NCBI RefSeq assembly: GCF_000425365.1
Contig: NZ_AUDH01000005.1
Span: forward strand, 1 to 64,000
From: Rubritepida flocculans DSM 14296
Lineage (GTDB): Bacteria; Pseudomonadota; Alphaproteobacteria; Acetobacterales; Acetobacteraceae
Direction of reading: 5' to 3'
DNA length: 64,000 nucleotides
In this document: positions 17,538-35,000 of the stretch, in pieces
Position numbering within the stretch: the stretch's first letter is position 1
Layout: every line of letters begins with the position of its first letter
The notes under the pieces: generated by a model
Seen by the model: only the letters and a program-made list of their open reading frames with translations
What the model was told of the DNA's origin: nothing
Databases searched by the model: none
Position numbers and translations under genes: made by a program

Positions 17538-18524
17538 CTACAGCCGCACCCGCAGCCAGTTGCCGATCTCGCCCACGATGCCGCGGCGGAAGGCGAGCAC
17601 GCAGAGCACGAAGATCACGCCCTGGATCACCGTCACCCATGCGCCAAACTCCGCGAGGTAGTTCTGCATGGTGATGATCACGGCCGCGCCCATCACCGGG
17701 CCGAAGATGGTGCCGAGCCCGCCGACCAGCGACATCAGCACCACCTCGCCCGACATGGTCCAGAACACGTCGGTCAGCGTCGCGATGCCGAAGACGATGG
17801 CCTTGGTCCCGCCCGCCACGCCCGAGAGCGCGGCCGAGAGGACGAAGGCCATCAGCTTGTAGTCGTCCGTGCGGTAGCCGAGCGAGGTGGCGCGCGGCTC
17901 GTTCTCGCGGATGGATTTCAGCACCATGCCGAAGGGCGAGTGGATGATGCGGTGGATCAGCAGGAAGCCGATCAGGAACACCGCCGCCACCACCCAGTAC
18001 ATCGTCATGTCCGAGCGCAGGTCGAAGACGCCGAACAGCACGCCGCGCGGAATGGCCTGGATGCCGTCCTCGCCGCCGGTGAACTCGGCCTGCAGGCAGA
18101 AGAAATAGACCATCTGCGCGAAGGCCAGGGTGATCATGGCAAAGTAGATGCCCTGGCGCCGGATGGCGATGGCGCCGATCACGAGGCCGAGCCCGGCGCC
18201 CACCGCGCCGCCGATCAGGATGGCGAGCTCGGGCGGCAGGCCCCAGACCTTCGCCGCATGCCCCGCGAGGTAGCCGCCCATCCCGAAATAGGCGGCGTGC
18301 CCGAAGCTGAGCAGCCCGACATAGCCGATGAGCAGGTTGAAGGCGCAGGCGAAGAGCGCGAAGCACAGCACCTTCATGAGGAAGACGGGATAGAGGAAGA
18401 AGGGGCTGATCGCGATGAACGCCAGCATGATCGCGAAGGCGGCGAGCTGGGTGCGCGTGAAGCCGAAGAAGACCGTGTCTTCCTGCTTGAAATCCGTGCC
18501 GGAGAAGCCGCCGGGAGCCGCCAT
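17538..18524 (-). CDS. livM: Branched-chain-type ABC transporter permease (LivM)
   Basis: A 328-residue inner-membrane permease with about nine hydrophobic segments. It has the LivM family hallmark LFACAFNLLIGYVGLLSFGHAAYFGMGGYL near residues 60-90 and a cytoplasmic loop with HSPFGMVLKSIRENEPRA that contacts the ATPases. It is the last gene of the minus-strand arm of the N-heterocycle locus, 3 nt after livH. In this setting it probably imports an aromatic or heterocyclic acid rather than leucine; that is inference. It lacks the extended N-terminus seen in leucine-specific LivM. Confidence 0.92.
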   Translation of the reverse strand: MAAPGGFSGTDFKQEDTVFFGFTRTQLAAFAIMLAFIAISPFFLYPVFLMKVLCFALFACAFNLLIGYVGLLSFGHAAYFGMGGYLAGHAAKVWGLPPELAILIGGAVGAGLGLVIGAIAIRRQGIYFAMITLAFAQMVYFFCLQAEFTGGEDGIQAIPRGVLFGVFDLRSDMTMYWVVAAVFLIGFLLIHRIIHSPFGMVLKSIRENEPRATSLGYRTDDYKLMAFVLSAALSGVAGGTKAIVFGIATLTDVFWTMSGEVVLMSLVGGLGTIFGPVMGAAVIITMQNYLAEFGAWVTVIQGVIFVLCVLAFRRGIVGEIGNWLRVRL

Positions 18525-18527
18525 GTC

Positions 18528-19412
18528 TCAGGCCCTCCCGAACAGGCCGGCCGGCCGCGTGAGCAGCACGATGGCCATGACGACGAAGATCACGGTGGAG
18601 GAGGCCTCCGGCCAGAACACCTTGGTCAGCCCCTCGATGACGCCGAGGGCGAAGCCCGTCACCACGGAGCCGAGGATGGAGCCCATGCCGCCGATCACCA
18701 CGACGGCGAAGACGATGATGATCAGGTTCGCCCCCATCTGCGGGTTCACCGAATAAATCGGCGCGGCCAGCACGCCCGCGAAGGCGGCCAGCGCCACGCC
18801 CGCGCCGTAGGTCAGCGTCATCATGCGCGGCACGTTGATGCCGAAGGCCTGCACCAGCGCCGGGTTCTCGGTGGCCGCGCGCAGGTAGGAGCCGATCTTG
18901 GTCTTCTCGATCACCAGCCAGGTGGCGAGGCACATGACGATCGCCACCACCACCACCCAGCCACGGTAGATCGGCATGAACATGAAGCCGAGATCCCAGC
19001 TTCCCTGCAGCTCCGCCGGGATGCGGTAGGGCATGCCGGAGCTGCCGAACTCGTTGCGGAACACGCCCTCGATGACCAGGCCCACGCCGAAGGTGAGCAG
19101 CAGCCCGTAGAGGTGGTCGAGCTTGTACAATCGGCTGATCATGGTCCGTTCGATCAGCACGCCGGTCAGCCCCACGAGGACGGGGGCGAGCAGCAGCGCC
19201 CACCAGTAGCCCAGGCCCGCCCAGTTCAGCAGCATCCAGGCCACGAAGGCGCCCATCATGAACTGCGCGCCATGCGTGAAGTTGATGACGTTGAGCATGC
19301 CGAAGATGACGGCGAGCCCGAGCGAGAGCAGGGCGTAGAAGGCCCCGTTGATCAGCCCGAGCAGCAACTGCCCGAAGAGCAGCGGCGCGGGGATTCCGAA
19401 GATCTCATCCAT
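18528..19412 (-). CDS. livH: Branched-chain-type ABC transporter permease (LivH)
   Basis: A 294-residue permease with about eight membrane segments. Hallmarks are GLINGAFYALLSLGLAVIFGMLNVINFTHGAQFM near the N-terminus and ATENPALVQAFGINVPRMM in the cytoplasmic loop. It pairs with LivM to form the membrane channel of the transporter. The gene is separated from the upstream binding-protein gene by 105 nt containing a strong hairpin, and the stop is 3 nt before livM. Confidence 0.92.
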   Translation of the reverse strand: MDEIFGIPAPLLFGQLLLGLINGAFYALLSLGLAVIFGMLNVINFTHGAQFMMGAFVAWMLLNWAGLGYWWALLLAPVLVGLTGVLIERTMISRLYKLDHLYGLLLTFGVGLVIEGVFRNEFGSSGMPYRIPAELQGSWDLGFMFMPIYRGWVVVVAIVMCLATWLVIEKTKIGSYLRAATENPALVQAFGINVPRMMTLTYGAGVALAAFAGVLAAPIYSVNPQMGANLIIIVFAVVVIGGMGSILGSVVTGFALGVIEGLTKVFWPEASSTVIFVVMAIVLLTRPAGLFGRA

Positions 19413-19492
19413 CGGCGTGCGTCGTTCCTTCGATCTCTGGCCGGGCGGCGCCGCGACGCGCCGCAGCGCGGGCGCGGCGCATCGCGACGGGC

Positions 19493-19511
19493 GAGGGCCG
19501 CGAGGGCCCTC
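19493..19511 (-). terminator. Hairpin between binding-protein gene and livH
   Basis: GAGGGCC and GGCCCTC arms enclose a 5-nt loop, 6 nt downstream of the binding-protein stop. No U-tract follows. Such hairpins after binding-protein genes often stabilise upstream mRNA or partly terminate, giving more binding protein than permease (general knowledge of ABC operons). Confidence 0.4.
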
Positions 19512-19517
19512 GGGGGA

Positions 19518-20765
19518 TCAGCTCCGCACCAGGGCGCAGCCGCCGGCCGCGAGCGGGCGGAAGGCCTGGTCGGCCGGCACCGTCTGCAGCAGGGTGTAGT
19601 AGTCCCAGGCGTAGCGGCTCTCGTTCGGCGCCTTCACCTGGAACAGATAGGCGGGATGGATCTTGCGCCCGTCGGGGCGGATGGTTCCCTCGCCGAAGGC
19701 GTCGTCGCTGGTGGGCATGGCCTTCATGCGGTTCACCGCGTCCACGCCCGAGGCCTTGGCCGCCGCCACGCCCATCTCGCCCACCGCCTTGAGGTAGTGC
19801 AGCACCGCCGAGTAGCAGCCCGCCTGCACCATGGAGGGGCGCAGATTGCCCGGCACCGGCCCGAGCCGCTGGGTGAAGGCGCGGGTGCGGTCGTTCAGAT
19901 CCCAGTAGAAGGTCTCGGTCAGCACCAGGCCCTGCGCCGTCTGCAGGCCGAGGCTGTGCACGTCGGTGATGAAGACGAGCAGCCCCGCAAGGCGCACGCC
20001 GCGCCGCGTCAGCCCGAACTCGGCCGCCTGCTTGATGGAGTTGATGGTGTCGCCGCCGGCATTGGCGAGGCCCACCACCTGTGCCCGGCTCGCCTGCGCC
20101 TGCACGAGGAAGGAGGAGAAATCGGTCGTCCCCGGGAAGGGCGTGCGCACGGAGCCCAGGATGCGCCCGCCCGCCTGGCGCACGAACTCGGAGGTGTCGC
20201 GCTCCAGCGCATGGCCGAAGGCGTAGTCGGCGGTGATGAAGAACCAGGTCTGCCCGCCGGCGGCCACCATGGCGCCGCCGGTGCCGCGCGCCAGCATCCA
20301 GGTGTCGTAGGTCCAGTGCACGGTGTTGGGCGAGCACTGCGCGCCCGTCAGGTCCGAGGTGGCGGGGCCGGAGGCGAGGAAGACCTTGTTGCGCTCGCGC
20401 ACGATGGTGTTGACGGCGAGCGCCACCGAGGAGGTGGGCACGTCCACGATCACGTCGATGCCGTCGCGGTCGATCCACTGGCGCACGACGGTGGAGCCGA
20501 CATCGGGGCGGTTCTGGTGGTCGGCCTGCACCACCTCGACGTTCACGCCACGCTGGGTGATGCCGCTCTCCTGCACCGCGAGGCGCACGGCCTGGGTGGA
20601 GCCGGGGCCGGAGATGTCCCGATACAGGCCCGACTGGTCGTTCATCACGCCGATGCGGATGGTGTTCGCCGCCTGCGCCTTGGCGGAGCGGTAGGGCAGG
20701 GCGCCCCAGACCGGGGCGGTGGCGGCCGCGCCCAGAACGGCGCGGCGGGTGGTCTCGTGGCTCAT
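19518..20765 (-). CDS. ABC transporter periplasmic binding protein, LivK/aromatic-acid type (copy 1)
   Basis: A 415-residue type I periplasmic binding protein. The N-terminus has a twin-arginine-like TTRRAVLGA and a hydrophobic stretch ending AKAQA, so it is exported by Sec or possibly Tat. The ligand domain begins NTIRIGVMNDQSGLYRD; the middle has FFITADYAFGHALERD and the C-terminus DDAFGEGTIRPDGRKIHPAYL. It belongs to the LivK-like group often linked to aromatic or amide substrates. It is highly similar to the next gene upstream, indicating tandem duplication. It feeds the LivHMGF transporter encoded around it. Confidence 0.88.
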   Translation of the reverse strand: MSHETTRRAVLGAAATAPVWGALPYRSAKAQAANTIRIGVMNDQSGLYRDISGPGSTQAVRLAVQESGITQRGVNVEVVQADHQNRPDVGSTVVRQWIDRDGIDVIVDVPTSSVALAVNTIVRERNKVFLASGPATSDLTGAQCSPNTVHWTYDTWMLARGTGGAMVAAGGQTWFFITADYAFGHALERDTSEFVRQAGGRILGSVRTPFPGTTDFSSFLVQAQASRAQVVGLANAGGDTINSIKQAAEFGLTRRGVRLAGLLVFITDVHSLGLQTAQGLVLTETFYWDLNDRTRAFTQRLGPVPGNLRPSMVQAGCYSAVLHYLKAVGEMGVAAAKASGVDAVNRMKAMPTSDDAFGEGTIRPDGRKIHPAYLFQVKAPNESRYAWDYYTLLQTVPADQAFRPLAAGGCALVRS

Positions 20766-20802
20766 CTTGCTCTCCTCGGTTCTTCTCGTTGCGTGGGAAG
20801 CC

Positions 20803-22044
20803 TCAGGTGCGGACCATGGGGCAGGCGCCCTCGGAGAGCGGCCGGAAGGCCTCCTCGGGCGTCACCGTCTGCAGCACCTTGTAGTAGTCGAAGCGGCCGC
20901 GGCTTTCGGCGGGGCTCTTCACCTCGCACAGATAGGCGGGGTGCATCTTGCGCCCGTCCTCGCGGATCGTGCCCTCGCCGAAGGCGTCGTCGCTCGTGGG
21001 CATGCGCTTCATGCGCGCCACCACGTCGCGCCCGCTGGCCTTGGCCGCGGCCACGCCCATGTCGGCCACGGTCTTGAGGTAGTGCAGCGTGGCCGAATAG
21101 TCGCCCGCATGGCTCATCGCCACCGGCATGTCGGCGCCGGAGAGCTGCAGCACCCGCTGGGCCACGCGCCGCGTGCGGTCGTTCAGATCCCAGTAGAAGG
21201 TGTTGGCGCAGACGAGGCCCTGCGCCGTCTGCAGGCCGAGCGCATGCACGTCGGTGATGAACAGCAGCAGCGAGGCGACGCGGATGCCGCGGCGCGTCAC
21301 GCCGAACTCGCCGATCTGCTTGATGGAGTTGATCGTGTCCGCGCCCGCGTTGGCGAGGCCGATCACCTGCGCGCGGCTGGCCTGGGCCTGGACGATGAAG
21401 CTCGAGAAGTCGGTGGTGCCAGGGAAGGGGTGGCGCACCTGGCCCAGCACCCGCCCGCCCGCCTGGCGGACGAAGTTCGCGGTGTCGCGCTCCAGCGCAT
21501 GGCCGAAGGCGTAGTCGGCGGTGATGAAGAACCAGTTCTGCCCGCCCGCGCGGACGGTGGCGAGGCCGCTCACCTTCGCCAGCATGTAGGTGTCGTACAC
21601 CCAGTGGATGGTGTTCGCGTTGCAGGCGCGCCCGGTCAGGTCGGAGGTGGCGGTGGAGGTGGCGATGGCCACCTTGTTGCGCTCGCGCGCGAGTTCCGAA
21701 ACCGCCAGCGCCACCGAGGAGGCGGCGAGGTTCAGCACCATGTCCACATTGTCGCGGTCGAACCACTGCCGGGCGATGTTCACGCCCACGTCGGGCCGGT
21801 TCTGGTGGTCGGCCTGCACCATCTCGACGTTGAAGCCGCGGTTGCCGAACTCCTGGATGGCGAGCCGCGTGGCGGCGATGGAGTTGGGCCCGTTCAGGTC
21901 GCGGAAGGGGCCGGAGAAATCGCTCAGCAGCCCGATGCGGATGGTGTTGGCGGCCTGGGCGCGCGCCGGGCGGTGCGGCAGCGCGCCGAGCAGCGGCGCG
22001 GCGGCGGCGGCGCCCAGAAGCCCGCGGCGGTGGATCTGGCTCAT
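20803..22044 (-). CDS. ABC transporter periplasmic binding protein, LivK/aromatic-acid type (copy 2)
   Basis: A 413-residue paralogue of the downstream copy. Shared blocks include AANTIRIG, ADHQNRPDVG, FFITADYAFGHALERDT, FPGTTDFSSF, GLQTAQGLV and PTSDDAFGEGTIR. Start ATG 22044 gives MSQIHRRGLLGAAAAAPLL, an RR-containing signal sequence. The differences concentrate in the N-lobe (for example DFSGPFRDLNGPNSIA against DQSGLYRDISGPGSTQ), so the two may accept related but different ligands for one transporter. It lies 59 nt after livF. Confidence 0.88.
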   Translation of the reverse strand: MSQIHRRGLLGAAAAAPLLGALPHRPARAQAANTIRIGLLSDFSGPFRDLNGPNSIAATRLAIQEFGNRGFNVEMVQADHQNRPDVGVNIARQWFDRDNVDMVLNLAASSVALAVSELARERNKVAIATSTATSDLTGRACNANTIHWVYDTYMLAKVSGLATVRAGGQNWFFITADYAFGHALERDTANFVRQAGGRVLGQVRHPFPGTTDFSSFIVQAQASRAQVIGLANAGADTINSIKQIGEFGVTRRGIRVASLLLFITDVHALGLQTAQGLVCANTFYWDLNDRTRRVAQRVLQLSGADMPVAMSHAGDYSATLHYLKTVADMGVAAAKASGRDVVARMKRMPTSDDAFGEGTIREDGRKMHPAYLCEVKSPAESRGRFDYYKVLQTVTPEEAFRPLSEGACPMVRT

Positions 22045-22103
22045 CTTGGTCGTCTCCCTGTCTCTCTCTTGTTCTGTGTTCGTTTCCCGCGGCGGGGCGG
22101 CGG

Positions 22104-22850
22104 TCACACGCCGAGGTATTCGTGCAGCCGCTCCATCGCGCCGGCCATCTCCTCGTTGCGCACCGCATCCACCACGCGGCCGTGCTCCATGACGTAGTGG
22201 CGGTCGGCCACCGTCTGGGCGAAGCGGAAGTTCTGCTCCACCAGCAGCACGGTGAAGCCGCGCTGCTTGAGCTCGCGGATGGTGCGGCCGATCTGCTGCA
22301 CGATGACGGGCGCGAGCCCCTCCGAGGGCTCGTCCAGCAGCAGCAGCTTCGCCCCCGTGCGCAGGATGCGCCCGATGGCGAGCATCTGCTGCTCGCCGCC
22401 CGAGAGCTTGGTGCCCGGGCTGCGCGTGCGCTCCTTGAGGTTGGGGAACATCTTGTAGATCTCGTCCACGGGAAGCCCGCCGGGCCGCACCTCGGGCGGC
22501 AGCATCAGGTTCTCGTAGACGGTGAGCGAGGCGAAGATGCCCCGCTCCTCCGGGCAATAGGCGATGCCCGCGCGCGCGATCTCGTCCGGCCGCGCGCCGA
22601 TCAGCTCCCGCCCCGCGTAGTGGACGGAGCCCGAGCGCCGGCCCACCAGCCCCATGATCGCGCGCAGCGTGGAGGTCTTGCCCGCGCCGTTGCGGCCGAG
22701 CAGCGTGACCACCTCGCCCTCGCGGATCTCGATGTCCACCCCGTGCAGCACATGGCTCTCGCCGTACCAGGCCTCGAGCCCCTTCACGCGCAGCAGGGGC
22801 GCCGTGCCGTCGGTCGCGGCGAGCGGGAGTTCGGCGAGCTGGTCAGCCAT
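22104..22850 (-). CDS. livF: Branched-chain-type ABC transporter ATP-binding protein (LivF)
   Basis: A 248-residue ATPase with Walker A GRNGAGKTS (about residue 52), Q-loop region, signature LSGGEQQMLAIGR, Walker B LLLLDEPSEGLAP and switch His replaced by the LivF-type VEQNF. The short LivF form, without the LivG C-terminal extension, is clear. The start overlaps the livG stop by 8 nt, so the two ATPases are translationally coupled. Confidence 0.94.
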   Translation of the reverse strand: MADQLAELPLAATDGTAPLLRVKGLEAWYGESHVLHGVDIEIREGEVVTLLGRNGAGKTSTLRAIMGLVGRRSGSVHYAGRELIGARPDEIARAGIAYCPEERGIFASLTVYENLMLPPEVRPGGLPVDEIYKMFPNLKERTRSPGTKLSGGEQQMLAIGRILRTGAKLLLLDEPSEGLAPVIVQQIGRTIRELKQRGFTVLLVEQNFRFAQTVADRHYVMEHGRVVDAVRNEEMAGAMERLHEYLGV

Positions 22851-23628
22851 GGGAGGCGCCCTCCGGAACGCCGACGGAGGCGGGGTCGGTCCCGAGATAG
22901 GCCGCCTGCACCTCGGGGTTGCGGCTCACGCTCGCGTAGTCCCCCTCGGCCAGCACCTGGCCGCGCGTCAGCACCGTGATCACGTCGCACAGGCCCTCGA
23001 CGACCTTGAGGTTGTGCTCCACCAGCAGCACGGTGCGGCCCTTCGAGACGCGCCTGATCAGCGCCACGATGCGGTCCACGTCCTCATGCGTCATGCCGGC
23101 GGTGGGCTCGTCCAGCAGCATCATCTGGGGGTCCATCGCCAGCGTGGTCGCGATCTCGAGCGCGCGCTTGCGGCCGTAGGGAAGCTGGCCGGCCTGCAGC
23201 GTCGCGTAGTCGGTCAGCCCCACATCCTCGAGCAGTTCCTCGGCGCGGCGGTTGTAGCGGTCGAGCACCGTCTCCGAGCGCCAGAAATCGAAGCTCGCGC
23301 CGCGTTCGCGCTGCAGCGCCACGCGCACGTTCTCGAGCACCGTCAGGTGCGGGAACACCGCCGAGATCTGGAATGAGCGGATGAGGCCGAGCCGCGCGAC
23401 CTCGGCGGGCTTCATGCTGGTGATGTCGCGCCCGTCATAGGTGATGCGCCCGCGCGTGGGAATGAGGAACTTGGTGAGCAGGTTGAAGCAGGTGGTCTTG
23501 CCCGCCCCGTTGGGGCCGATCAGCGCGTGGATGCTGTGCCGCCGGACGCTGAGGTTGACGCCCTGGACCGCGACGAAGCCGCGGAACTCCTTCGTCAGAT
23601 CCTCCGTCTGAAGGATGATGTCGCTCAC
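22843..23628 (-). CDS. livG: Branched-chain-type ABC transporter ATP-binding protein (LivG)
   Basis: A 261-residue ATPase with Walker A IGPNGAGKTT, the LivG-specific RSFQISAVFPHLTVLENV and Walker B MLLDEPTAGM. The signature segment reads LPYGRKRALEIA, where LSYGxQR or similar is usual. GTG at 23628 is preferred because a G-rich ribosome site precedes it and the conserved domain begins at once; an in-frame ATG farther upstream would run through a perfect palindrome. It is the first transporter gene of the arm, 122 nt after the xdhB-type gene. Confidence 0.92.
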   Translation of the reverse strand: MSDIILQTEDLTKEFRGFVAVQGVNLSVRRHSIHALIGPNGAGKTTCFNLLTKFLIPTRGRITYDGRDITSMKPAEVARLGLIRSFQISAVFPHLTVLENVRVALQRERGASFDFWRSETVLDRYNRRAEELLEDVGLTDYATLQAGQLPYGRKRALEIATTLAMDPQMMLLDEPTAGMTHEDVDRIVALIRRVSKGRTVLLVEHNLKVVEGLCDVITVLTRGQVLAEGDYASVSRNPEVQAAYLGTDPASVGVPEGASHG

Positions 23629-23651
23629 CCGTCGCCGCCCCCTTGTCCGTT

Positions 23652-23675: not shown

Positions 23676-23750
23676 GCCACCCTGTTCCGGCGCTCATGCG
23701 GCGCCTGTTCTCGCTTGTATGGCGGGGCGTTGTGGCGCTGGCAAGCGCCT

Positions 23751-26039
23751 TCACGCGCCGCCCTGCGCTGCCTTCATTTCGAGCAGAATCCGTTCGGGCG
23801 TGGCCGGCAGGTCGAGCCGGGCGAGCCCCGTGGCGTCGCGCAGCGCGTTCACCACCGCGGTGGCGAGCAGCAGCGGCGGCTCGCCCACCGCCTTGGAGCG
23901 GAAGATGGTGTTCGCCCGCGCCGGCGCCCCCTCCAGCAGCCGCACCTTCAGCACCGGCGGCACGTCGCGCGAGCCCGGGATCTTGTAGGTGGAGGGGCCG
24001 AGGGTGCGCTGCCGGCCGGCTTCGTCCCACCACAGCTCCTCGGTGGTGAGCCAGCCCATCCCCTGCACGAAGGCGCCCTCGATCTGGCCGAGGTCGATGG
24101 CCGGGTTCAGGCTGCGCCCGCAATCCTGCACGATGTGCGCCGAAAGGCAGCGGTGCTCGCCCGTCAGCGTGTCGAGCAGCACCTCCGCCACCGCCGCGCC
24201 GTAGGTGAAGTAGAAGAAGGGCGCGCCGCGCATCGCCGCCGCGTCCCAGTGGATGTCGGGCGTCTTGTAGAAGCCGGTGGCGGAGAGGCTCACGCGCTCC
24301 CGCCAGCAGAGCCTGGCGAGTTCGGCGAAGGAGAGGCGCTCATTCGCCCCGGGCCGGGCGGGGAAGATCGCGCCGTCCTCGAACACCACCTCCTCGGGCG
24401 CGCAGCCGAAGCGGCGCGCCGCCACCTCCGTCATGCGGGCCTTGATGGCGCTCGCCGCCGCATGCGCCGCCCAGCCGTTGAGGTCGCTGCCCGTGGAGGC
24501 GGCGGTGGCGCTGGTGTTGGGCACCTCGGCGGTGGAGGTCGCGGTGATGCCCACCTGCTCGACGGGCACGGAGAACACCTCCGCCACCACCTGGGCCACC
24601 TTGATGAACAGGCCCTGGCCCATCTCCGTGCCGCCATGGGCGAGGCGGATGGAGCCGTCGGTGTAGACATGCACCAGCGCGCCGGCCTGGTTCAGATGCA
24701 CGATGCCGAAGCTGATGCCGAAGGCGCAGACGAAATGGCCGAGCCCCCGCCGCAGCGTGGGGTGGGCGGCGTTGAAGGCGGCGATCTCCGCCCGCTTCGC
24801 CTCCCAGCCCGCATCGCGCTTCGCCTCGGCCATCACGCGCCGGGCGAGTTCGGGCTCCAGCGCCTGGCCATAGGGGGTGCGATCGGCGAGGTTGATTGCG
24901 CGCAGCGCCTCCACGTCGCGGCCGAGATGCCGGGCCATGGCGTGCAGCACATCCTCCATCAGCAGCGCGCCCTGCGGGCCGCCGAAGCCGCGGAAGGCGG
25001 TGTTGCTGACGTGGTTGGTCTTCACCGCGCAGGCGGTGATCTCGAGCTCCGGCGCGGCGTAGCAGTTGAGCGCATGGGTGAGGGCGCGGAACACCACGCC
25101 CCCCGACATGTCCACGCTGTGCCCGCCATCGGCGGCGAGCAGCGCGCGCAGCGCCAGCAGCCGGCCCTCGGCGTCGAAGCCCGCCTCCCAGCGGTAGAGG
25201 AAGGGATGGCGCTTGCCGGTGGCCGCCATGTCGGCCCGCCGCGGCAGGCGCAGCTTCACCGGCCGGCCCGTCAGCCGCGCCGCCACCGCCGCCGCCGCCG
25301 CCACCCAGCTCGCATTGCTCTCCTTGCCGCCGAAGCCGCCGCCCATGCGCCGGCAGGTGACGGTGACGCGCTGATAGGCCACGCCCAGCACGCGCGCGAC
25401 GATGTGCTGCACCTCGCTCGGGTGCTGGGTGGAGGAGTGGACGAGCATCTCCCCCTCCTCGCCCGGGATGGCGAGGGCGATCTGCCCCTCGAGGTAGAAA
25501 TGCTCCTGCCCGCCGGCGCGGAACTCGCCCGAGAGCCGGTGCGGGGCGCGCGCGAGCCCGGCCGCCGCGTCGCCCTCGCGGATGGTCTGCGGCGGGATGA
25601 TCCAGGCCTGCCGCGCCAGCCCCTCCTCGATGGAGAGCACGGGCGGCAGCGGCGCGATGGCGGGGGCGATGGCGGCGGCCGCGCGCAGCGCCGCATCGCG
25701 CGTCTCGGCCACGACGATGGCGAGCGGCTGGCCGTGATGCTCCACCAGCCCCTCGGCCAGCAGCGGCTCGCCGGTCGCGATGGGGGCGATGTCGTTCTCG
25801 CCCGGGATGTCGGCGGGCGTGACGATCCGCACCACCCCGGGCATGGCGAGGGCGGCGGCGAGGTCGAGCCCCTCGATCCGCCCATGCGCGACGGGCGAGA
25901 GGGCGAGTGCGGCATGCAAAGTGCCCGCGGGTTCGGGCAGATCGTCGAGGAAGCGCGCCGCGCCAGTCGCGTGGCGCAGCGCGCTGTCGTGCCGCATGGC
26001 CTGGCCGGCGCGGCGCAGCGGAGGGGGCGCGCCGTCCAT
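23751..26039 (-). CDS. Molybdenum hydroxylase large subunit, XdhB type
   Basis: A 762-residue molybdopterin-binding subunit of the xanthine dehydrogenase family. The N-terminal a/b-hammerhead domain (about 15-125) is followed by the molybdopterin domains, with motifs MGGGFGGKES, TAFRGFGGPQGALL, GGTEMGQGLFIKVAQV and VGEPPLLLA near the end, where the catalytic Glu resides. The start shares a base with the stop of the FeS/FAD gene, giving a two-subunit enzyme. In the enamidase locus it could hydroxylate nicotinate or a related heterocycle; true xanthine dehydrogenase cannot be excluded. No XdhC chaperone is visible. Confidence 0.85.
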   Translation of the reverse strand: MDGAPPPLRRAGQAMRHDSALRHATGAARFLDDLPEPAGTLHAALALSPVAHGRIEGLDLAAALAMPGVVRIVTPADIPGENDIAPIATGEPLLAEGLVEHHGQPLAIVVAETRDAALRAAAAIAPAIAPLPPVLSIEEGLARQAWIIPPQTIREGDAAAGLARAPHRLSGEFRAGGQEHFYLEGQIALAIPGEEGEMLVHSSTQHPSEVQHIVARVLGVAYQRVTVTCRRMGGGFGGKESNASWVAAAAAVAARLTGRPVKLRLPRRADMAATGKRHPFLYRWEAGFDAEGRLLALRALLAADGGHSVDMSGGVVFRALTHALNCYAAPELEITACAVKTNHVSNTAFRGFGGPQGALLMEDVLHAMARHLGRDVEALRAINLADRTPYGQALEPELARRVMAEAKRDAGWEAKRAEIAAFNAAHPTLRRGLGHFVCAFGISFGIVHLNQAGALVHVYTDGSIRLAHGGTEMGQGLFIKVAQVVAEVFSVPVEQVGITATSTAEVPNTSATAASTGSDLNGWAAHAAASAIKARMTEVAARRFGCAPEEVVFEDGAIFPARPGANERLSFAELARLCWRERVSLSATGFYKTPDIHWDAAAMRGAPFFYFTYGAAVAEVLLDTLTGEHRCLSAHIVQDCGRSLNPAIDLGQIEGAFVQGMGWLTTEELWWDEAGRQRTLGPSTYKIPGSRDVPPVLKVRLLEGAPARANTIFRSKAVGEPPLLLATAVVNALRDATGLARLDLPATPERILLEMKAAQGGA

Positions 26040-28009: not shown

Positions 28010-29166
28010 GCCCGCAGCTCCGGGATGCGCGCGGCGGGGGGCGTGTTGCGGCTGCGGCCGCAGACGATCTTCCCGTCCACGATCACCATGCCGATGCCGG
28101 GCAGCTCGCCCTCCATGAAGGCCTCGGCCGCGTCGCGCCCCGCGCCGCCGATGGGCGCGTCCAGCAGCACGAGATCGGCCGCCCGCCCGGGCGCGATCAC
28201 CCCCGCCTCGATCCCGCGCCAGCGCGCGGTGTTGCCGCCCGCCGCCGCGATGGCGAGGCCCGGATCGAGCCCGCCGACCGAGCACAGGAGGGAGATGGTC
28301 CGCAGCACGCCGAGCGGCTGCACGCCCGAGCCCGCGGGGCTGTCCGTGCCGATCACCAGCCGGTCGAGCCGCCCCATCTCGCGCAGCACGCCCAGCGCAT
28401 GCAGCGCGTTGCGCGGGTTGCCGTTGTGCACCACCTCGATGGCGCGGGAGGTGCCCTCGATGACCTTCGTCAGCTCCGCGCGCGGCAGCGAGGTGGGCCC
28501 GCCATTGATGTGCGCCACGATGTCGGCGTCCGCGGCGATGACCACCGGCGCGGCCATGAGGTTCGAGCCGGCGATGGAGGGCCCGCCGCAGTGGATCATG
28601 GCGTTGAGCCCGGCGGCGCGCACCCAGCCCATCACCTGCGCCACCTCCGCCTCGTCCTTGACGGTGCCGAGGCCGAACTCGCCCACGAAGCGCACCCCGG
28701 CCGCGGCCATCTCGGCGTAGTCGGCCTCGGTGAGGCCGCGCTCGGGCACCGGCGCGCCGGCCAGCACCCGCGCGCCCATGGGCCGGAAGGCCGAGAAGGC
28801 GCGCTGCGCGGCGATGGCGAGCGCCTTCACCCCCACGGGATCCTTCGGCCGGCCGGGCAGATGCACCTCGCCCGCGCTGATCAGCGTGGTGGTGCCGCCA
28901 TGCACCATGCCCTCGATCCAGCCGAGCTGGTTCTGCCGCGGCGTCCAGTCGCCGAAGGCGGGGTGCACGTGGTTGTCGATCAGCCCGGGCATGACGGCGC
29001 AGCCCTGCGCCTCGATCACCTCCGCGCCCTCGGCGTCCATCTCCGCGGCGCGGCCGATGGCGGCGATGCGGCCCTGCTCGATCAGGATCGCGTCCGCCTC
29101 GAGGCGCGGGGCGGCGATGTCGCCCGAGAAGACGAGTCCGAGCCCGCGCAGCAATGTCCGTGTCAT
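28006..29166 (-). CDS. Enamidase-like cyclic amidohydrolase
   Basis: A 386-residue amidohydrolase-superfamily protein. Metal ligands are expected at His66 and His68 (IDNHVHPAFGDW), with further His in MIHCGGPSI and AHINGGPTS and an Asp in GTDSPAGSG near residue 275. The sequence pattern resembles enamidase of Eubacterium barkeri, which opens 1,4,5,6-tetrahydro-6-oxonicotinate to 2-formylglutarate with release of ammonia. The 6-hydroxynicotinate-reductase-like gene a few kilobases away on the other strand supports this reading. It is the first gene of the minus arm, starting 63 nt from the divergent operon. Another cyclic-imide or dihydroorotase-type substrate is the alternative. Confidence 0.72.
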   Translation of the reverse strand: MTRTLLRGLGLVFSGDIAAPRLEADAILIEQGRIAAIGRAAEMDAEGAEVIEAQGCAVMPGLIDNHVHPAFGDWTPRQNQLGWIEGMVHGGTTTLISAGEVHLPGRPKDPVGVKALAIAAQRAFSAFRPMGARVLAGAPVPERGLTEADYAEMAAAGVRFVGEFGLGTVKDEAEVAQVMGWVRAAGLNAMIHCGGPSIAGSNLMAAPVVIAADADIVAHINGGPTSLPRAELTKVIEGTSRAIEVVHNGNPRNALHALGVLREMGRLDRLVIGTDSPAGSGVQPLGVLRTISLLCSVGGLDPGLAIAAAGGNTARWRGIEAGVIAPGRAADLVLLDAPIGGAGRDAAEAFMEGELPGIGMVIVDGKIVCGRSRNTPPAARIPELRA

Positions 29167-29229
29167 GCAAGCCTCCCCAAGGGCCGCGGGGAGCGTAGTT
29201 TCCGATTGAGCGGCGCGCCAAGGGGCCGC
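29167..29229. promoter_or_regulatory. Divergent control region of the N-heterocycle locus
   Basis: These 63 nt separate the start codons of the two arms and should carry both promoters. On the minus strand TTGGCG (29221-29216) and TACGCT (29197-29192) are spaced 18 nt, a plausible sigma70-type promoter for the enamidase arm. For the plus arm only AAGGGG, the ribosome site, is obvious. No regulator gene lies in either arm, so the controlling factor must be elsewhere. Confidence 0.35.
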
Positions 29230-30015
29230 ATGCTCCGACGAAACGAAATGGAGCGGACGAGGTTGGGGAACTATTGGCGGCCCGCGACGCTGGAGGCGGC
29301 GCTGCGGATTCTCGTGGAGCAGGCGCCGCGCCTCCTGGCCGGCGGCACCGATGTCTATCCGGCGCTGACCCAGGCGGCCGCCTGGGGGGCGGCCCCCGCG
29401 CCGGCGCTGCTCGACCTCACGGGCATCGCCGCGCTGCGCGGGGTGACGCGCACGGGCGGGACGTGGCGCATCGGCGCCCTCACCCCCTGGGCGGTGCTGC
29501 GCGACGCGCCGCCCGCCCCGGGCTTCCGCGCCCTGGCCGAGGCGGCGGCGCAGGTGGGCGGGCGGCAGATCCAGGCGCGCGGCACCATCGGGGGCAATCT
29601 CTGCAACGCCTCGCCCGCGGCCGATGGCGTGCCGCCGCTGCTGATCCTCGACGCGGCGGTGGAGCTCGCCTCGCCCCGGGGCCTGCGCGTCCTGCCGCTG
29701 CGGGAGTTCCTGCCGGGCGCGCGGCGCACGGCCCGCGCGGCGGATGAGATCGTGACGGCCATCCTCGTTCCCGTGGCGGCGGCGGAGGCGCCCTCGGTGT
29801 TCCTCAAGCTCGGCGCGCGGGCGCATCTCGTCATCTCCATCGCCATGGTCGCGGCCAGCGCGAACGGGCGGGTGGCGGTGGGGGCCTGCTCGGAGGTGGC
29901 GCGGCTGTGGGAGGAGGGGCTCGCGCCCATCGACGATGTGCGCGCGAGCGCCGCCTATCGCCGCGCCGCGGCCGAGGAGCTGGTGGCGCGGGCGCGCGCG
30001 AGGCTCGCCGCATGA
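29230..30015 (+). CDS. Molybdenum hydroxylase FAD-binding subunit (CoxM-like)
   Basis: A 261-residue FAD subunit. The family features are NYWRPATLEAALRIL at the N-terminus, RLLAGGTDVYPAL (FAD pyrophosphate loop) and QARGTIGGNLCNASPAADG (second FAD loop), followed by a small C-terminal domain. It passes electrons from the molybdopterin enzyme to an acceptor. ATG 29230 is preceded by AAGGGG at 5 nt; ATG 29248 is possible. It is coupled by ATGA to the fused catalytic subunit, together forming a second hydroxylase distinct from the one on the minus arm. Confidence 0.87.
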   Translation: MLRRNEMERTRLGNYWRPATLEAALRILVEQAPRLLAGGTDVYPALTQAAAWGAAPAPALLDLTGIAALRGVTRTGGTWRIGALTPWAVLRDAPPAPGFRALAEAAAQVGGRQIQARGTIGGNLCNASPAADGVPPLLILDAAVELASPRGLRVLPLREFLPGARRTARAADEIVTAILVPVAAAEAPSVFLKLGARAHLVISIAMVAASANGRVAVGACSEVARLWEEGLAPIDDVRASAAYRRAAAEELVARARARLAA

Positions 30016-32636
30016 TCCGCCTGACCGTGAACGGCGCGCCGCGCGCGCTCGATCTGCCGGGCGGGACGCGGCTTTCCGCCGCGCTGCGCGAGACGCTGGG
30101 GCTGACGGGCACCAAGATCGGCTGCGACGCCGGGGATTGCGGCGCCTGCACCGTGCTGATCGACGGCGCCCAGGCCTGCGCCTGCCTCACCCCGCTCGGC
30201 CAATGCGAGGGGGCGCGGGTGGAGACGGTGGAGGGCCTGGCCGCCACCCCCGAGGGGCGGGCGCTGATCGCGCGCTTCCACGCCGCGGGCGCGGCACAAT
30301 GCGGCATCTGCACGCCCGGCATGCTGGTGGCCGCGACCGAGCTGCTGCGCGCCAACCCCGCGCCCTCGGAGGCGGAGGTGGAGGCGGCGCTGGGCGGCGT
30401 GCTCTGCCGCTGCACCGGCTATCGGCGCATCATCGAGGCGGTGCGCGGCGCGGGGCCGGCGGCCGAGCCGGGGGCGGTGGGGGCGCGGCTGCCGCGGCTC
30501 GACGGCGCGGCCAAGCTCGACGGAAGTGCCCGGTTCGGGGCCGATCTCGCCCCGGCCGATGCGCTCTGGCTCAAGGCCGTGCGCTCGCCGCACGCCCATG
30601 CGCGCTTCGTCCTGCCCGACATCCCGGCCTTCCTGGCCGCCCATCCCGGCATCCGCGCGGTGCTGACGGCGCGCGACGTGCCGGGGCGCAACGGCTACGG
30701 CATCTATCCGCACATCAAGGACCAGCCCGTCTTCGCCGAAGGCGAGGCCCTTTATCGCGGCGACGCGGTGGCCGCGCTGGTGGGCGCGCGCGAGGCCGTC
30801 GAGCGCGCGGAACTGCCCGTGGCCTGGACGCCGCTGCCCGCCCGTCACGACCCCGAGGCCGCGCTCGGCGGCCCGCCGCTGCACGCGGCCTTCCCGGACA
30901 ATGTGCTGGCCGAGGGGCTGGTGCGCCGCGGCGATCCGGAGGCCGCCTTCGCCGCCGCCGCACATGTCGCGGAGGGCGCCTTCCGCACGAGCTTCGTCGA
31001 GCACGCCTACATCGAGCCCGAAGCGGGCTTCGCGCGGCGAATCGGCGAGCGCATCGAGATCTGGTGCGCCACCCAGGCCCCGGCGATGGACCGCGAGGAG
31101 GTGGCGGGCGTGCTCGGCCTGCCGCTCGAGGCCGTGCGCATCATCCCGAGCCATTGCGGCGGCGGCTTCGGCGGCAAGCTCGATGCGGGGATGCAGCCCA
31201 TGCTCGCCGTCGCCGCCTGGGTCCTCGACCATCCCGTGCGCGCCGTCTGGTCGCGGCCCGAGAGCATGGCCGCCAGCACCAAGCGCCACCCCGCGCGCAT
31301 CGCGGCGCGCGCCGCCTGCGACGCGGAGGGCCGCCTGCTCGCGCTCGACTTCGAGGGGCTCTACGACACGGGCGCCTATGCCTCCTGGGGGCCGACGGTG
31401 GCGGGGCGCGTGCCGGTGCACGCCACCGGGCCCTATCGCGTGCCGCATGTGCGGGCGCGGGCGCGGGCGGTGTTCACGCACCAGCCGCCCTCGGGCGCCT
31501 TCCGCGGCTTCGGCGTGCCCCAGGCGGCGGTGGCGCAGGAGGCGCTCTACGACCGCCTGGCCGACGCCTGCGGCATGGACCGGCTGGAGTTCCGCATCCT
31601 CAACGCGCTGACGCCGGGCGACGTGACGGCGACGGGCCAGCGCCTCGCCCATTCCGTGGGCCAGCGCGAGTGTCTCGAGGCGCTGCGCCCGCGCTGGGCG
31701 GCGCTGCGCGCGGAGGCCGCGCGCCGCAACGCGGCCGGCGGGCCCTGGCGCCATGGCGTGGGGGTGGCGGGCATGTGGTACGGCATCGGCAACACCGGCA
31801 TGTCCAACCCCTCGGAGATGCGGCTGATCCTGGGCGCGGATGGCCGGCTCTCCTTCCGCAACGGGGCGGTGGACATCGGCCAGGGCAGCGCCACCGTGCT
31901 CGCCCAGATCGTGGCGGAGGCGCTCGGCCTGCCGGTCGTGGCCATCGCCCAGATCCATGGCGACACGGCGCTCACCCCCGATGCGGGCAAGACCAGCGCC
32001 TCGCGCCAGACCTTCGTCTCGGGCCGCGCGGCGCTGGCCGCGGCCCTGGACCTGCGCGCGAAGCTCAACGGCGCGCTGGGCTGGGACGGGGCGCGGGTGA
32101 CGGTGAACGGCGAGCCCTATGCCGGGCCGGGGCTCGAGGGCCATGGCCGTTTCGACCCGCCCACCGTGCCGCTCGACGCGGAGGGCCAGGGCACGCCCTA
32201 CGCCACCTACGGCTTCGCGGCGCAGCTCTGCGCGCTGGCGGTGGATGTGCGGCTTGGCACGGTGCGGCTCGAGCGCTTCGTCGCCGCGCATGACGTGGGG
32301 CGCGCGATCAACCCCACGCTGGTGGAGGGGCAGATCCATGGCGGGATCGCCCAGGGCATCGGGCTCGCGCTGATGGAGGAATACATCCCCGGCCGCACCG
32401 AGAACCTGCACGACTACCTGATCCCCTCCTTCGGCGATGTGCCGCCCATCGAGTGCATCCTGATCGAATCGCCCGAACCGCTCGGGCCCTATGGCGCGAA
32501 GGGGGTGGGCGAGCCCGCGCTGGTCGCCACCGCGCCGGCCATCCTCTCCGCCATCCGCGACGCGACGGGCGCGCAGATCGCGCATCTGCCCGCCCTGCCG
32601 CACCGTGTGCTGGAGGCGCTTGGCCATGGCCGATAG
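30012..32636 (+). CDS. Fused [2Fe-2S]-molybdopterin hydroxylase subunit
   Basis: An 874-residue fusion of two subunits that are usually separate. Residues 1-155 form the ferredoxin-like small subunit with Cys38, Cys43 and Cys46 and the second cluster CGICTPG and CRCTGY. After a short linker, residues from about 165 form the molybdopterin subunit with CGGGFGGKLDAG, SGAFRGFGVPQAAVAQ, VDIGQGSATVLAQI and GAKGVGEPALVATAP. It would hydroxylate an N-heterocycle or aldehyde using water. The fusion, plus a separate FAD subunit, differs from the XdhAB-type pair on the other arm. Substrate assignment to nicotinate or its analogue rests on the adjacent reductase gene. Confidence 0.85.
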   Translation: MIRLTVNGAPRALDLPGGTRLSAALRETLGLTGTKIGCDAGDCGACTVLIDGAQACACLTPLGQCEGARVETVEGLAATPEGRALIARFHAAGAAQCGICTPGMLVAATELLRANPAPSEAEVEAALGGVLCRCTGYRRIIEAVRGAGPAAEPGAVGARLPRLDGAAKLDGSARFGADLAPADALWLKAVRSPHAHARFVLPDIPAFLAAHPGIRAVLTARDVPGRNGYGIYPHIKDQPVFAEGEALYRGDAVAALVGAREAVERAELPVAWTPLPARHDPEAALGGPPLHAAFPDNVLAEGLVRRGDPEAAFAAAAHVAEGAFRTSFVEHAYIEPEAGFARRIGERIEIWCATQAPAMDREEVAGVLGLPLEAVRIIPSHCGGGFGGKLDAGMQPMLAVAAWVLDHPVRAVWSRPESMAASTKRHPARIAARAACDAEGRLLALDFEGLYDTGAYASWGPTVAGRVPVHATGPYRVPHVRARARAVFTHQPPSGAFRGFGVPQAAVAQEALYDRLADACGMDRLEFRILNALTPGDVTATGQRLAHSVGQRECLEALRPRWAALRAEAARRNAAGGPWRHGVGVAGMWYGIGNTGMSNPSEMRLILGADGRLSFRNGAVDIGQGSATVLAQIVAEALGLPVVAIAQIHGDTALTPDAGKTSASRQTFVSGRAALAAALDLRAKLNGALGWDGARVTVNGEPYAGPGLEGHGRFDPPTVPLDAEGQGTPYATYGFAAQLCALAVDVRLGTVRLERFVAAHDVGRAINPTLVEGQIHGGIAQGIGLALMEEYIPGRTENLHDYLIPSFGDVPPIECILIESPEPLGPYGAKGVGEPALVATAPAILSAIRDATGAQIAHLPALPHRVLEALGHGR

Positions 32637-34113
32637 GACGGAGCAATTCGGCGCGCGCGAGGGGACGGAGGGCATCGTGCGCTGCGACGCCTGCCCGGTG
32701 CTCTGCCGCATCAGGCCCGGCCGCGCCGGCGCCTGCCACCGCTACGCCAATGAGGGCGGGCGGCTGGTGCGGACCGATCCGCTGGTGCTGCTCACCCGCA
32801 CGGTGGAGGCCGCGGAGCCCGTGGTGCCCTTCCTCGAGGGCGCGGAGGAATGGGCGGGCGAGCTTGCCCCGCGCGAGCAGGTCTTCGTCACCGCCATCGG
32901 CGCGGGCACCACCTATCCGGACTACAAGCCCGCGCCCTTCATCGTCAGCGCCCGCCATGAGGGGGTGGACACGGTGACGGTCGTCACCGAGGGCATCTTC
33001 AGCTACTGCGGCCTCAAGGCGAAGATCGACACCGACCGCCATCTCGGCCCCGAGGCCGCGCCGGTGCGCCATGAGGGCGAGCAGATCGGCCATGTCACCA
33101 CCGCCGAATACGGCTCGCAGATGCTCTCGCTCGGCGGCGTGCGCCACCTCACGGGCGGCTCGAAGCGCGAGGGGCAGGTGACCTGCGCCGCGCTGCTCGC
33201 CCTCTGCCGGAAGGAGGCGATCGAGGTCGAGATCGAGGGCGGCGCGCGCCTTGTGCTGCAGGCCGGCGCCGCGCCCATCGTCAACGGCGTGCGCGAGAGC
33301 CGCATGCGCGTGGGCTGCGGCAGCGCGGCCATCGGCATCTTCGCCCAGCAATGGCACGGCCATGTGGACGAGGTGGTGGTGCTGGACGACCACATCACCG
33401 GCGTGCTGACCGAGCACCAGGCGGGGAAATGCCTCGGGATGCGCCCCTCCGGGCTGCGCGTGCGCGGCCGGCGCTCCACCCCCGGGCGCTATTTCCAGGT
33501 GGCGCATCCCGGCGCGGGCTGGGGCGGGACGGACATCACCGATCCGCTCTCGGTCATCGAGGGCTTCGACCCCAAGCAGGCCTGGCCCGGCATGCGCGTG
33601 CTGATGACCAGCACGACGGGCGAGGACGCGCTGTGGTTCGAACTCGACGAGGCGCTGCGCCCCGTCCCGCGCCCCATGCCCGAGGCGGTGGCGCGCACCG
33701 TCGCGCGCATCGGCGAGAACTGCGAGCCGGCGATGACCTCCATCCTCTTCATGGCCGGGGCGGGCGGGTCGCTGCGCGCGGGGGTGACGGAGAACCCCAT
33801 CCTGCTCACCCGCCGCGTGCAGCAGGGCGAGGTGCGCGTCACCATGGGCGGCGCGCCCTGCTATCTCTGGCCCGGGGGCGGCATCACCATCATGGCGGAT
33901 GTGCTGCGCATCCCCGACAACGCCTTCGGGCATGTGCCCACGCCCGCCCTGGTCGCGCCCATCGAGTTCACCATGCGCGCCGATCTCTACGCCGCGCTCG
34001 GCGGGCATGTGGAGCACGCGCTGCCGCTTGCGGAACTGCTCGCGCGGCACGCGGCGGAGAGCGAGAGCGCGCCCTGGCCTGCCGCCAATCCCTGGCCCGA
34101 GGCCCCGAGATGA
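32626..34113 (+). CDS. 6-hydroxynicotinate reductase-like iron-sulfur protein
   Basis: A 495-residue cytoplasmic protein. The N-terminus has Cys20, Cys23, Cys27 and Cys37 (CDACPVLCR, then GRAGACHRY), a probable iron-sulfur site. The rest is a conserved single-family sequence with VTEGIFSYCGLKAKIDTD, CGSAAIGIFAQQWHGHVDEVVVLDDHITGV and a C-terminal block with GGGITIMADVL. From memory this matches the 6-hydroxynicotinate reductase family (EC 1.3.7.1), known from Eubacterium barkeri nicotinate fermentation and of similar length. It would reduce 6-hydroxynicotinate to 1,4,5,6-tetrahydro-6-oxonicotinate, the enamidase substrate. The start overlaps the preceding gene by 11 nt. The electron donor is not encoded here. 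Confidence 0.75.
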   Translation: MADRTEQFGAREGTEGIVRCDACPVLCRIRPGRAGACHRYANEGGRLVRTDPLVLLTRTVEAAEPVVPFLEGAEEWAGELAPREQVFVTAIGAGTTYPDYKPAPFIVSARHEGVDTVTVVTEGIFSYCGLKAKIDTDRHLGPEAAPVRHEGEQIGHVTTAEYGSQMLSLGGVRHLTGGSKREGQVTCAALLALCRKEAIEVEIEGGARLVLQAGAAPIVNGVRESRMRVGCGSAAIGIFAQQWHGHVDEVVVLDDHITGVLTEHQAGKCLGMRPSGLRVRGRRSTPGRYFQVAHPGAGWGGTDITDPLSVIEGFDPKQAWPGMRVLMTSTTGEDALWFELDEALRPVPRPMPEAVARTVARIGENCEPAMTSILFMAGAGGSLRAGVTENPILLTRRVQQGEVRVTMGGAPCYLWPGGGITIMADVLRIPDNAFGHVPTPALVAPIEFTMRADLYAALGGHVEHALPLAELLARHAAESESAPWPAANPWPEAPR

Positions 34114-35000
34114 TGGACGCCGCCGCCTGGCCGCCGCCGCAGCGGCAGCTTCTGCCCGATGGGCGGCTGCTGCTGGAGGACGGGCCGATCCGCCTCGTGA
34201 TCGGCTTGGAGGGCGCGCGGGCGGCGGTGCTGGAGGCGCGCGAGGCGGCGGCGCGCGCGCTGGAGGGCGTGCTGCCCGCCCTGGCCGAGGAGGTCGCGCT
34301 GCTGCGCCAGCCGCTCATGGGCCGCCCGCCCGCCGTGCGCCACCCCGTGGCGCGGCGCATGGTGGAGGCCGCCTGGCCCTATCGCGCGCATTTCGTCACG
34401 CCCATGGTCGCCGTGGCGGGGGCGGTGGCCGAGCATGTGCTGCTCGGGCTCACCGCCGTCCCGGGGCTCACCATGGCCTATGTGAACAATGGCGGCGACA
34501 TCGCCCTGCACCTCTCGGGGCAGGCGACGCTGCGCGTGGGCCTCGTGGAGCGGCCCGAGGCGGGGGCGCCCGATGGGCTGGCGGTGATCCGCGGCGGCGA
34601 TGCGGTGCGGGGCATCGCCACCTCGGGCTGGCGCGGGCGCAGCTTCTCGCGCGGGATCGCCGATGCGGTGACGGTGCTCGCCACCCGCGCGCCCGAGGCG
34701 GACGCCGCCGCGAGCCTGATCGCCAACGCGGTGGACGCCGAGCACCCGCTGATCCGCCGCGCGCCGGCGCAGAGCCTCGACCCGGACAGCGACCTGCGCG
34801 ACCTGCCGGTGACGGTGGATGTGGGCGCGCTGCCGCCCGAGATCGTGCACCTCGCCCTCGATCGCGGCGAGGCCTTCGCCGAGGGGCTGCTGGCGCGCGG
34901 GCTGGTGCTGGGCGCCTGCCTGCGCCTGCAGGGGCAGGTGCGGGTTCTGGGCGCCTCGGGCGCGCTGGTGAATTTCGGGCGCGAGGAGAGGCTCGGCTGA
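34110..35000 (+). CDS. UPF0280 (ApbE-like) family protein
   Basis: A 296-residue protein of the UPF0280 family, distantly related to the FAD:protein FMN transferase ApbE. Supporting segments are HFVTPMVAVAGAVAEHVL, MAYVNNGGDIALHLSG (an ApbE-like NxGGD motif) and ATSGWRGRSFSRGIADAVTVLA. No signal peptide or lipobox is present, so it is cytoplasmic, unlike classical ApbE. The start overlaps the reductase stop as ATGA and it is the last gene of the plus arm. It may mature a flavin centre on the reductase, which is inference; a role as an independent enzyme is possible. Confidence 0.72.
   Translation: MMDAAAWPPPQRQLLPDGRLLLEDGPIRLVIGLEGARAAVLEAREAAARALEGVLPALAEEVALLRQPLMGRPPAVRHPVARRMVEAAWPYRAHFVTPMVAVAGAVAEHVLLGLTAVPGLTMAYVNNGGDIALHLSGQATLRVGLVERPEAGAPDGLAVIRGGDAVRGIATSGWRGRSFSRGIADAVTVLATRAPEADAAASLIANAVDAEHPLIRRAPAQSLDPDSDLRDLPVTVDVGALPPEIVHLALDRGEAFAEGLLARGLVLGACLRLQGQVRVLGASGALVNFGREERLG

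Follow-up and report, generated by a model that had tools for sequence, protein, structure and literature searches.

How would a bacterium of the Roseococcus-like lineage, whose lifestyle we take to be aerobic, degrade nicotinate (vitamin B3) through reduction of its ring, and which gene products would serve each step? The question is raised by the first 64,000 nucleotides (nt) of contig C5 of the Rubritepida flocculans DSM 14296 genome (3.83 Mb in 74 contigs), a stretch called the window throughout, in which two divergent gene arms encode homologues of enamidase, 6-hydroxynicotinate reductase (Hnr) and nicotinate dehydrogenase (Table 1). We read the locus as one that breaks down nicotinate by a reductive route and put the probability of this reading at about 0.8; it draws on homology, gene order and co-occurrence from the present analysis and on chemistry from the literature on relatives. 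In the predicted pathway, a Liv-type ATP (adenosine triphosphate)-binding cassette (ABC) importer with two binding proteins would take up nicotinate, a dehydrogenase with a flavin adenine dinucleotide (FAD) subunit and a fused iron-sulfur and molybdenum (FeS-Mo) subunit (29230-32636) would hydroxylate it at C6, and Hnr would convert 6-hydroxynicotinate to 1,4,5,6-tetrahydro-6-oxonicotinate, probably with electrons from ferredoxin. The enamidase would then hydrolyse this enamide-lactam to ammonium and 2-formylglutarate, while a DUF1185 protein would probably help at a later aldehyde step and a UPF0280 protein would probably mature Hnr. What the importer carries, where the electrons come from and what DUF1185 and UPF0280 do are inferences on our part.

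An aerobic reductive nicotinate route is already known. The available text of PMC3511419 reports that SG-6C mineralises nicotinate via 6-hydroxynicotinate and has a homologue of Eubacterium barkeri Hnr (42%), within a gene cluster that is also conserved in further proteobacteria, among them Azorhizobium caulinodans. Besides the Hnr homologue, the cluster of A. caulinodans ORS571 and Bradyrhizobiaceae comprises the genes of the first three steps, a putative ABC transporter and two conserved proteins without assigned function (PMC3511419, in part), which we take to be UPF0280 and DUF1185. The window has these elements too, its nicotinate 6-hydroxylase being a putative one, and differs in having a xanthine-dehydrogenase-type pair inserted. 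The tetrahydro-oxonicotinate route is assigned to both E. barkeri and A. caulinodans in the accessible part of PMC9304392. An earlier note on this DNA had proposed an oxygen-tolerant reductive nicotinate branch; the pathway is supported by homology and by the SG-6C and Azorhizobium cluster, but the branch is not new, because clusters of this kind in Azorhizobium and Bradyrhizobiaceae are described in PMC3511419, as far as its text was available. With this locus, a little-known aerobic and reductive vitamin B3 route gains a member from the Roseococcus-like lineage; the pairing of Hnr with UPF0280 and the apparent exchange of ring openers are the points worth following.

Enzymes of the predicted nicotinate pathway

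Among solved structures, the enamidase homologue is matched best and end to end by the E. barkeri enamidase 2VUN, the next Protein Data Bank (PDB) entry scoring 37.2 bits. The two sequences are identical in 170 of 383 alignment columns, and the HxH, GE, H, H and D motifs, which we take to be metal ligands, stand in register. Whole-length similarity and these metal-site motifs place the protein in the enamidase family, in line with the earlier note, which had called it an enamidase-like amidohydrolase. The FAD subunit likewise finds its best PDB match in the corresponding subunit of E. barkeri nicotinate dehydrogenase (3hrd_C; next match 60.7 bits).

Hnr is identified through its relatives. Seventeen of 26 plasmid records with an Hnr relative annotate that relative as 6-hydroxynicotinate reductase, with homology over the full length, and the nearest named relatives of the window protein belong to Roseococcus sp. 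SKW89 (96%) and R. suduntuyensis (85%). The 32626-34113 product is accordingly named an Hnr homologue by way of annotated relatives rather than by direct comparison with E. barkeri Hnr, in agreement with the reductase-like label it had been given. The sequence itself matches no NCBIfam model and one Pfam model below cut-off; searched singly against the PDB it retrieved nothing up to E 1, and a profile search retrieved one entry at E 1.3. Regarding the electron donor, ferredoxin-NADP reductase genes occur in nine of the 12 plasmid Hnr loci examined (eight found with one query and L130 with another), and a homologue with 50% identity lies elsewhere in the window's genome.

Some observations weigh against a nicotinate cluster. 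The FeS-Mo subunit scores higher against aldehyde oxidoreductase 1dgj (383.6 bits) than against nicotinate dehydrogenase 3hrd_A (263.8 bits), an enzyme split over two chains, so that by sequence it is a putative nicotinate dehydrogenase subunit; it also reached no NCBIfam cut-off. The E. barkeri enzyme is built from separate FeS, large Mo and medium Mo chains (3hrd), whereas FeS and Mo parts form one protein here. No regulator, ferredoxin or 2-formylglutarate enzyme was identified within the cluster, the later steps not having been searched for genome-wide.

Co-occurrence of UPF0280 and probable exchange of ring openers

To place the locus among its relatives, we used an alignment of 23 Hnr proteins to scan contigs and, of at least 595 matched stretches, retained the 80 best, a set that leans to close relatives because only the best were kept. 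At a tblastn threshold of 1e-10, these 80 loci contain Hnr in 80 cases, UPF0280 in 78, the FeS-Mo subunit in 73, the FAD subunit in 65, DUF1185 in 59 and enamidase in 21. Of the two loci lacking UPF0280, L084 has the start of a UPF0280 gene at its contig end and L107 has none within 10 kb. A hydantoinase/oxoprolinase pair (HyuA/HyuB; Pfam PF01968 and PF02538) was found only where enamidase is missing: 33 loci have HyuA/HyuB, 21 have enamidase, none has both and 26 have neither. The 12 plasmid loci divide in the same manner (four enamidase, eight HyuA/HyuB, none both), and the 92 pooled loci, under identity limits, comprise 25 with enamidase, 41 with HyuA or HyuB, none with both and 26 with neither. 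Ten of the 26 loci with neither opener have full 10-kb flanks on both sides; the ring opener there would be of a further type or encoded elsewhere.

When one HyuA and one HyuB from the relatives' loci were compared with NCBIfam, the closest models were the subunits of caprolactamase (CapAB), matched with 499.6 and 315 bits; the cut-offs being 1000, the pair is not caprolactamase itself. Many relatives carry such a caprolactamase-like HyuA/HyuB pair, a putative ring opener that probably uses ATP, in place of enamidase. On the Hnr tree, built by a quick method with no bootstrap, the enamidase and HyuAB states change at least eight times among the 67 rows that bear a label, one of them the window. 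We found no paper joining 6-hydroxynicotinate reductase with hydantoinase among the open-licence papers searched, and the available text of PMC9304392 and PMC3511419 contains no hydantoinase. This distribution makes it testable whether enamidase and the caprolactamase-like pair, the latter presumably with ATP, are alternative openers of one and the same reduced ring.

The dehydrogenase is exchanged as well. With identity limits of 45% and 48%, the FeS-Mo enzyme occurs in 76 of the 92 loci and a NicAB-type dehydrogenase in six, where the FeS-Mo gene is missing, and no locus has both; below these limits, a NicB-like match of 27% lies next to the FeS-Mo gene of L135. Three of the six NicAB-type loci have enamidase and three have HyuAB, and one NicAB pair was annotated as nicotinate dehydrogenase by its depositor. 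Because a NicAB-type enzyme stands beside each kind of opener, both opener types appear to be tied to nicotinate. These data also bear on the possibility that the cluster applies the same chemistry to another pyridine carboxylate or N-heterocycle, such as a chlorinated or N-methylated nicotinate. Such a substrate would fit the variation of transporter proteins from cluster to cluster (close counterparts of the window's binding proteins are confined to near relatives, and other Hnr loci carry a different Liv set) and the entry of 6-chloronicotinate into this route in SG-6C, described in the accessible part of PMC3511419. It is nonetheless improbable, as the solved proteins closest to the enamidase and to the FAD subunit are nicotinate enzymes of E. 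barkeri and NicAB-type enzymes replace the FeS-Mo enzyme in the six loci above.

We extended the comparison to 289 Alphaproteobacterial genomes, the window's included, scoring only the best few candidates per genome, so that misses are possible. Hnr was matched at E 0.001 in 45 genomes, of which G182 was dropped for a match of 36 residues, and UPF0280 (NF003322) in 48, of which G099, G109, G121 and G143 were dropped as below cut-off; two genomes with matches divided between contigs, G064 and G087, were kept as UPF0280-positive. After this removal of weak matches, the two sets are the identical 44 genomes. Enamidase was found at E 1e-40 in 23 genomes (19 with at least 50% identity) and HyuB at E 1e-180 in 32 (27 with at least 64% identity). 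By these identity limits, which were chosen after viewing the match lists, 18 of the 44 Hnr genomes have enamidase, 25 have HyuB, none has both and one, G064 (68% complete), has neither; with the limits lifted, G104 has both, through a 39% enamidase-like protein, and G064 has an enamidase-like fragment. Openers without Hnr occur in G082 (53% enamidase) and in G114 and G217 (64-65% HyuB). Hnr and the opener are no more than 15 kb apart in 13 of the 18 enamidase genomes and 14 of the 25 HyuB genomes; in the others the opener is farther away or on another contig, and the link between Hnr and opener there rests on similarity. Fisher values computed for the 92 loci and for the genome comparison take no account of relatedness. 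The window's genome yielded six Hydantoinase_B matches, none of them a HyuB of the close caprolactamase-like type.

UPF0280 and a proposed maturation of Hnr

Strong UPF0280 matches occur only alongside Hnr in the sampled Alphaproteobacteria, which makes the function of this family testable through genome comparison. The window protein exceeds the NF003322 cut-off (Table 1), and a model built from 75 aligned sequences had a predicted local distance difference test score (pLDDT) of 92.6. Foldseek placed DVU1097 first, followed by flavin transferases, and 19 of 21 matches at E 0.001 or better were ApbE, Ftp or FmnB, with template modelling scores of 0.29-0.53; as judged from the model, UPF0280 has the flavin-transferase (ApbE) fold. 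A profile of 75 UPF0280 proteins also aligned over residues 105-206 with a set of 17 ApbE proteins from genomes of the class (probability 94.7, E 6.2e-8), matching NNGGD to the GGD stretch, ATSG to ATSG and ADAAAS to ADAWAT. ApbE catalysis is attributed to Ser, His and Asp in the available text of PMC12052999. UPF0280 retains two of these, the Ser of ATSG and the Asp of ADAxAT, while the histidine stretch of ApbE has no counterpart in the profile alignment, and the ApbE Pfam model PF02424 does not match UPF0280. We therefore rejected UPF0280 as a true member of ApbE and describe it as possibly working like ApbE, which it resembles in fold and three motifs and from which it departs in the catalytic His and the PF02424 match.

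Hnr offers a potential target for such an activity. E. barkeri Hnr reportedly carries a covalent flavin, according to a 2006 study; a search of open-licence literature found no text that treats covalently bound flavin and 6-hydroxynicotinate together. Hnr contains four G-x-[S/T] stretches that each keep both ends in at least 73 of 74 sequences, and one of them stands in S-L-R-[A/S]-G-[V/A/I]-T, which includes Thr388. This last stretch agrees in part with the ApbE target motif D-x-x-[S/T]-G-A-[S/T] given in the accessible part of PMC12052999, position 382 being Ser instead of Asp and G-A-T occurring in six of 74 sequences, and may be the best candidate for a covalent-flavin site in Hnr, as a lead only. 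Since the window's genome has no ApbE (PF02424) match, we propose that UPF0280 attaches the flavin of Hnr: it would be a dedicated Hnr maturase that works without the ApbE histidine, with Thr388 as the best candidate site, and Hnr would be a flavin and iron-sulfur reductase whose fold is unmatched in the PDB. We advance this proposal tentatively and regard it as rather doubtful; if true, UPF0280/COG2122, hitherto tied to homocysteine synthesis and sulfide use, would constitute a second class of flavin transferases.

It is also possible, if short of an even chance, that UPF0280 serves the sulfur or iron-sulfur chemistry of Hnr by sulfur trafficking and attaches no flavin. The available text of PMC5764234 states that homocysteine synthesis in Desulfovibrio vulgaris requires COG2122 together with DUF39, suggests a role in persulfide modification, and adds that the homology of COG2122 to ApbE does not seem to extend into the flavin-binding region, while MA1715 is named a sulfur trafficking protein in the accessible part of PMC12068725. 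The missing counterpart of the ApbE histidine would fit such a role, as would the eight conserved Cys of Hnr, seven of which are invariant in all 74 sequences and one of which is kept in 72. The UPF0280 columns that are invariant or almost so, however, include no Cys, and the counterparts of GGD, ATSG and ADAxAT, along with the covalent flavin reported for E. barkeri Hnr, favour flavin attachment. A whole-word search of open-licence literature for UPF0280, DUF375 and PF04040 returned nothing on the subject.

The fold of Hnr was approached through a model from 74 sequences (pLDDT 81.7, predicted template modelling score 0.71; residues 78-99 poorly predicted). Foldseek found no PDB match at E 0.001, the best being E 0.089, and a T-protein-related fold was rejected, the Pfam GCV_T_C match lying below cut-off and 1wos and 1pj5 reaching Foldseek probabilities of 0.25 and 0.20. 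An Hnr structure would be informative because no fold relative is detectable in the PDB. As a separate observation, the N-terminal CX2CX3CX9C of the window's Hnr (residues 15-50) resembles the Cys motif of AmmeMemoRadiSam radical S-adenosylmethionine enzymes. Short matches to this Hnr-like Cys motif appeared in four genomes; the one checked, the weak Hnr match of G001, is an AmmeMemoRadiSam protein (TIGR04337 636.6 bits; L167 198-1307).

Accessory genes and setting of the locus

DUF1185 and UPF0280 were both absent from the genes listed in the earlier note. Among the 80 related loci, DUF1185 of clade B, to which the window's copy belongs, is present in 20 of 21 enamidase loci, one of 33 HyuAB loci and seven of 26 loci with neither; in the underlying tree, from which copies shorter than 150 residues were excluded, the printed support is 0.145 on the clade B side and 1.0 on the other. 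Copies with at least 60% identity also occur in the plasmid loci, in four of four with enamidase and five of eight with HyuAB. The latter weaken the link between DUF1185 and enamidase, and we rejected an exclusive association of clade B with enamidase loci. The available text of PMC7913881, citing work on trigonelline degradation, reports that the DUF1185 homologue TgnF stimulates TgnE-dependent oxidation of succinic semialdehyde, and PMC2954203, in part, describes the DUF1185 fold and its neighbourhood with branched-chain amino-acid transport genes. We propose that DUF1185 is probably an accessory at an aldehyde step.

The two molybdenum hydroxylases of the earlier note are both present and are of different kinds, but the conserved cluster includes just one of them, the enzyme made of the FAD subunit (65 of 80 loci) and the FeS-Mo subunit (73 of 80). 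The second enzyme has a large subunit above the TIGR02965 cut-off, the only such protein in the genome, and looks like the genome's xanthine dehydrogenase; we call it xanthine-dehydrogenase-type because its small subunit falls below the TIGR02963 cut-off and the XdhC matches in the genome (TIGR02964), on contig C3, reach 64.6 and 38.1 bits where the cut-off is 161.6. With this large subunit inside the minus-arm operon, one could suppose that the cluster mainly serves a purine pathway with the xanthine-dehydrogenase-type enzyme as its core. We consider this highly improbable and set it aside, since the large subunit occurs in only three of the 80 related loci (L039, L040 and L044, all near relatives) and the small subunit in four, against 80 for Hnr, 78 for UPF0280 and 73 for FeS-Mo. 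Judged by this distribution, 23751-27391 is probably a local insertion in the nicotinate operon and outside the nicotinate route.

The genes named in the earlier note, among them those for LivHMGF-type proteins and two binding proteins, are open and in place, and the two arms start 63 nt apart as it had stated, between the enamidase-like ATG at 29166 (minus strand) and the first FAD-subunit ATG at 29230 (plus strand); use of the alternative ATG would widen the gap to 81 nt. The minus arm is transcribed in the order enamidase homologue, DUF1185, FeS+FAD subunit, molybdenum subunit, livG, livF, two binding proteins, livH and livM, and the plus arm in the order FAD subunit, FeS-Mo subunit, Hnr and UPF0280, with adjacent genes overlapping by a few bases. 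A promoter scan found no sigma-70-like site in 28900-29500, and together with a repeat search it gave nothing informative in the divergent gap.

Table 1. Features of the divergent locus, in window coordinates.
Feature	Coordinates	Strand	Evidence or remark
LivM-type permease	17538..18524	-	open reading frame; best NCBIfam UrtC 134.8 bits, under cut-off
LivH-type permease	18528..19412	-	open reading frame; best NCBIfam UrtB 191.9 bits, under cut-off
Periplasmic binding protein 2	19518..20765	-	PF13458 333 bits
Periplasmic binding protein 1	20803..22044	-	PF13458 311.1 bits (from 22020); ATG start 22044
LivF-type ATPase	22104..22850	-	best NCBIfam UrtE 233.7 bits, under cut-off
LivG-type ATPase, GTG start	22843..23628	-	best NCBIfam UrtD 224.5 bits, under cut-off
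Xanthine-dehydrogenase-type molybdenum subunit	23751..26042	-	TIGR02965 983.5 bits, cut-off 849.5
FeS+FAD subunit, same xanthine-dehydrogenase-type enzyme	26039..27391	-	TIGR02963 398.7 bits, under cut-off 467
DUF1185 (AA_synth) protein, clade B	27431..28009	-	PF06684 239 bits; PDB 2qtp 260.6 bits
Enamidase homologue, proposed ring opener	28006..29166	-	PDB 2vun 358.8 bits, residues 1-382
63-nt divergent intergenic gap	29167..29229	none	start codons of both arms
FAD subunit, proposed nicotinate dehydrogenase	29230..30015	+	best PDB match 3hrd_C 90.6 bits; alternative start 29248
FeS-Mo fused subunit, proposed nicotinate dehydrogenase	30012..32636	+	PDB 1dgj 383.6 bits; 3hrd_A 263.8 bits
Hnr homologue	32626..34113	+	annotation of relatives; model pLDDT 81.7
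UPF0280, ApbE-like fold, proposed Hnr maturation factor	34110..35000	+	NF003322 335.1 bits, cut-off 290

Several neighbouring genes were also recorded. Downstream (3') of UPF0280, 35146-35649 encodes 167 residues that begin like a signal peptide and contain repeats of the unit S/T-D-x-D-P-x-D-P-P-G-x-G-R-G, and a similar protein was clustered in four of the 80 related loci. Adjoining livM, a TctC-type tripartite tricarboxylate binding protein (PF03401) is encoded at 16470-17441 on the plus strand. A second Liv-type permease set with a Peripla_BP_6 binding protein lies at 39551-44133, preceded by genes for a response regulator, a glycosyltransferase and a protein resembling histidine kinases, and another molybdenum hydroxylase large subunit crosses the right edge of the window (C5:63916-66177).

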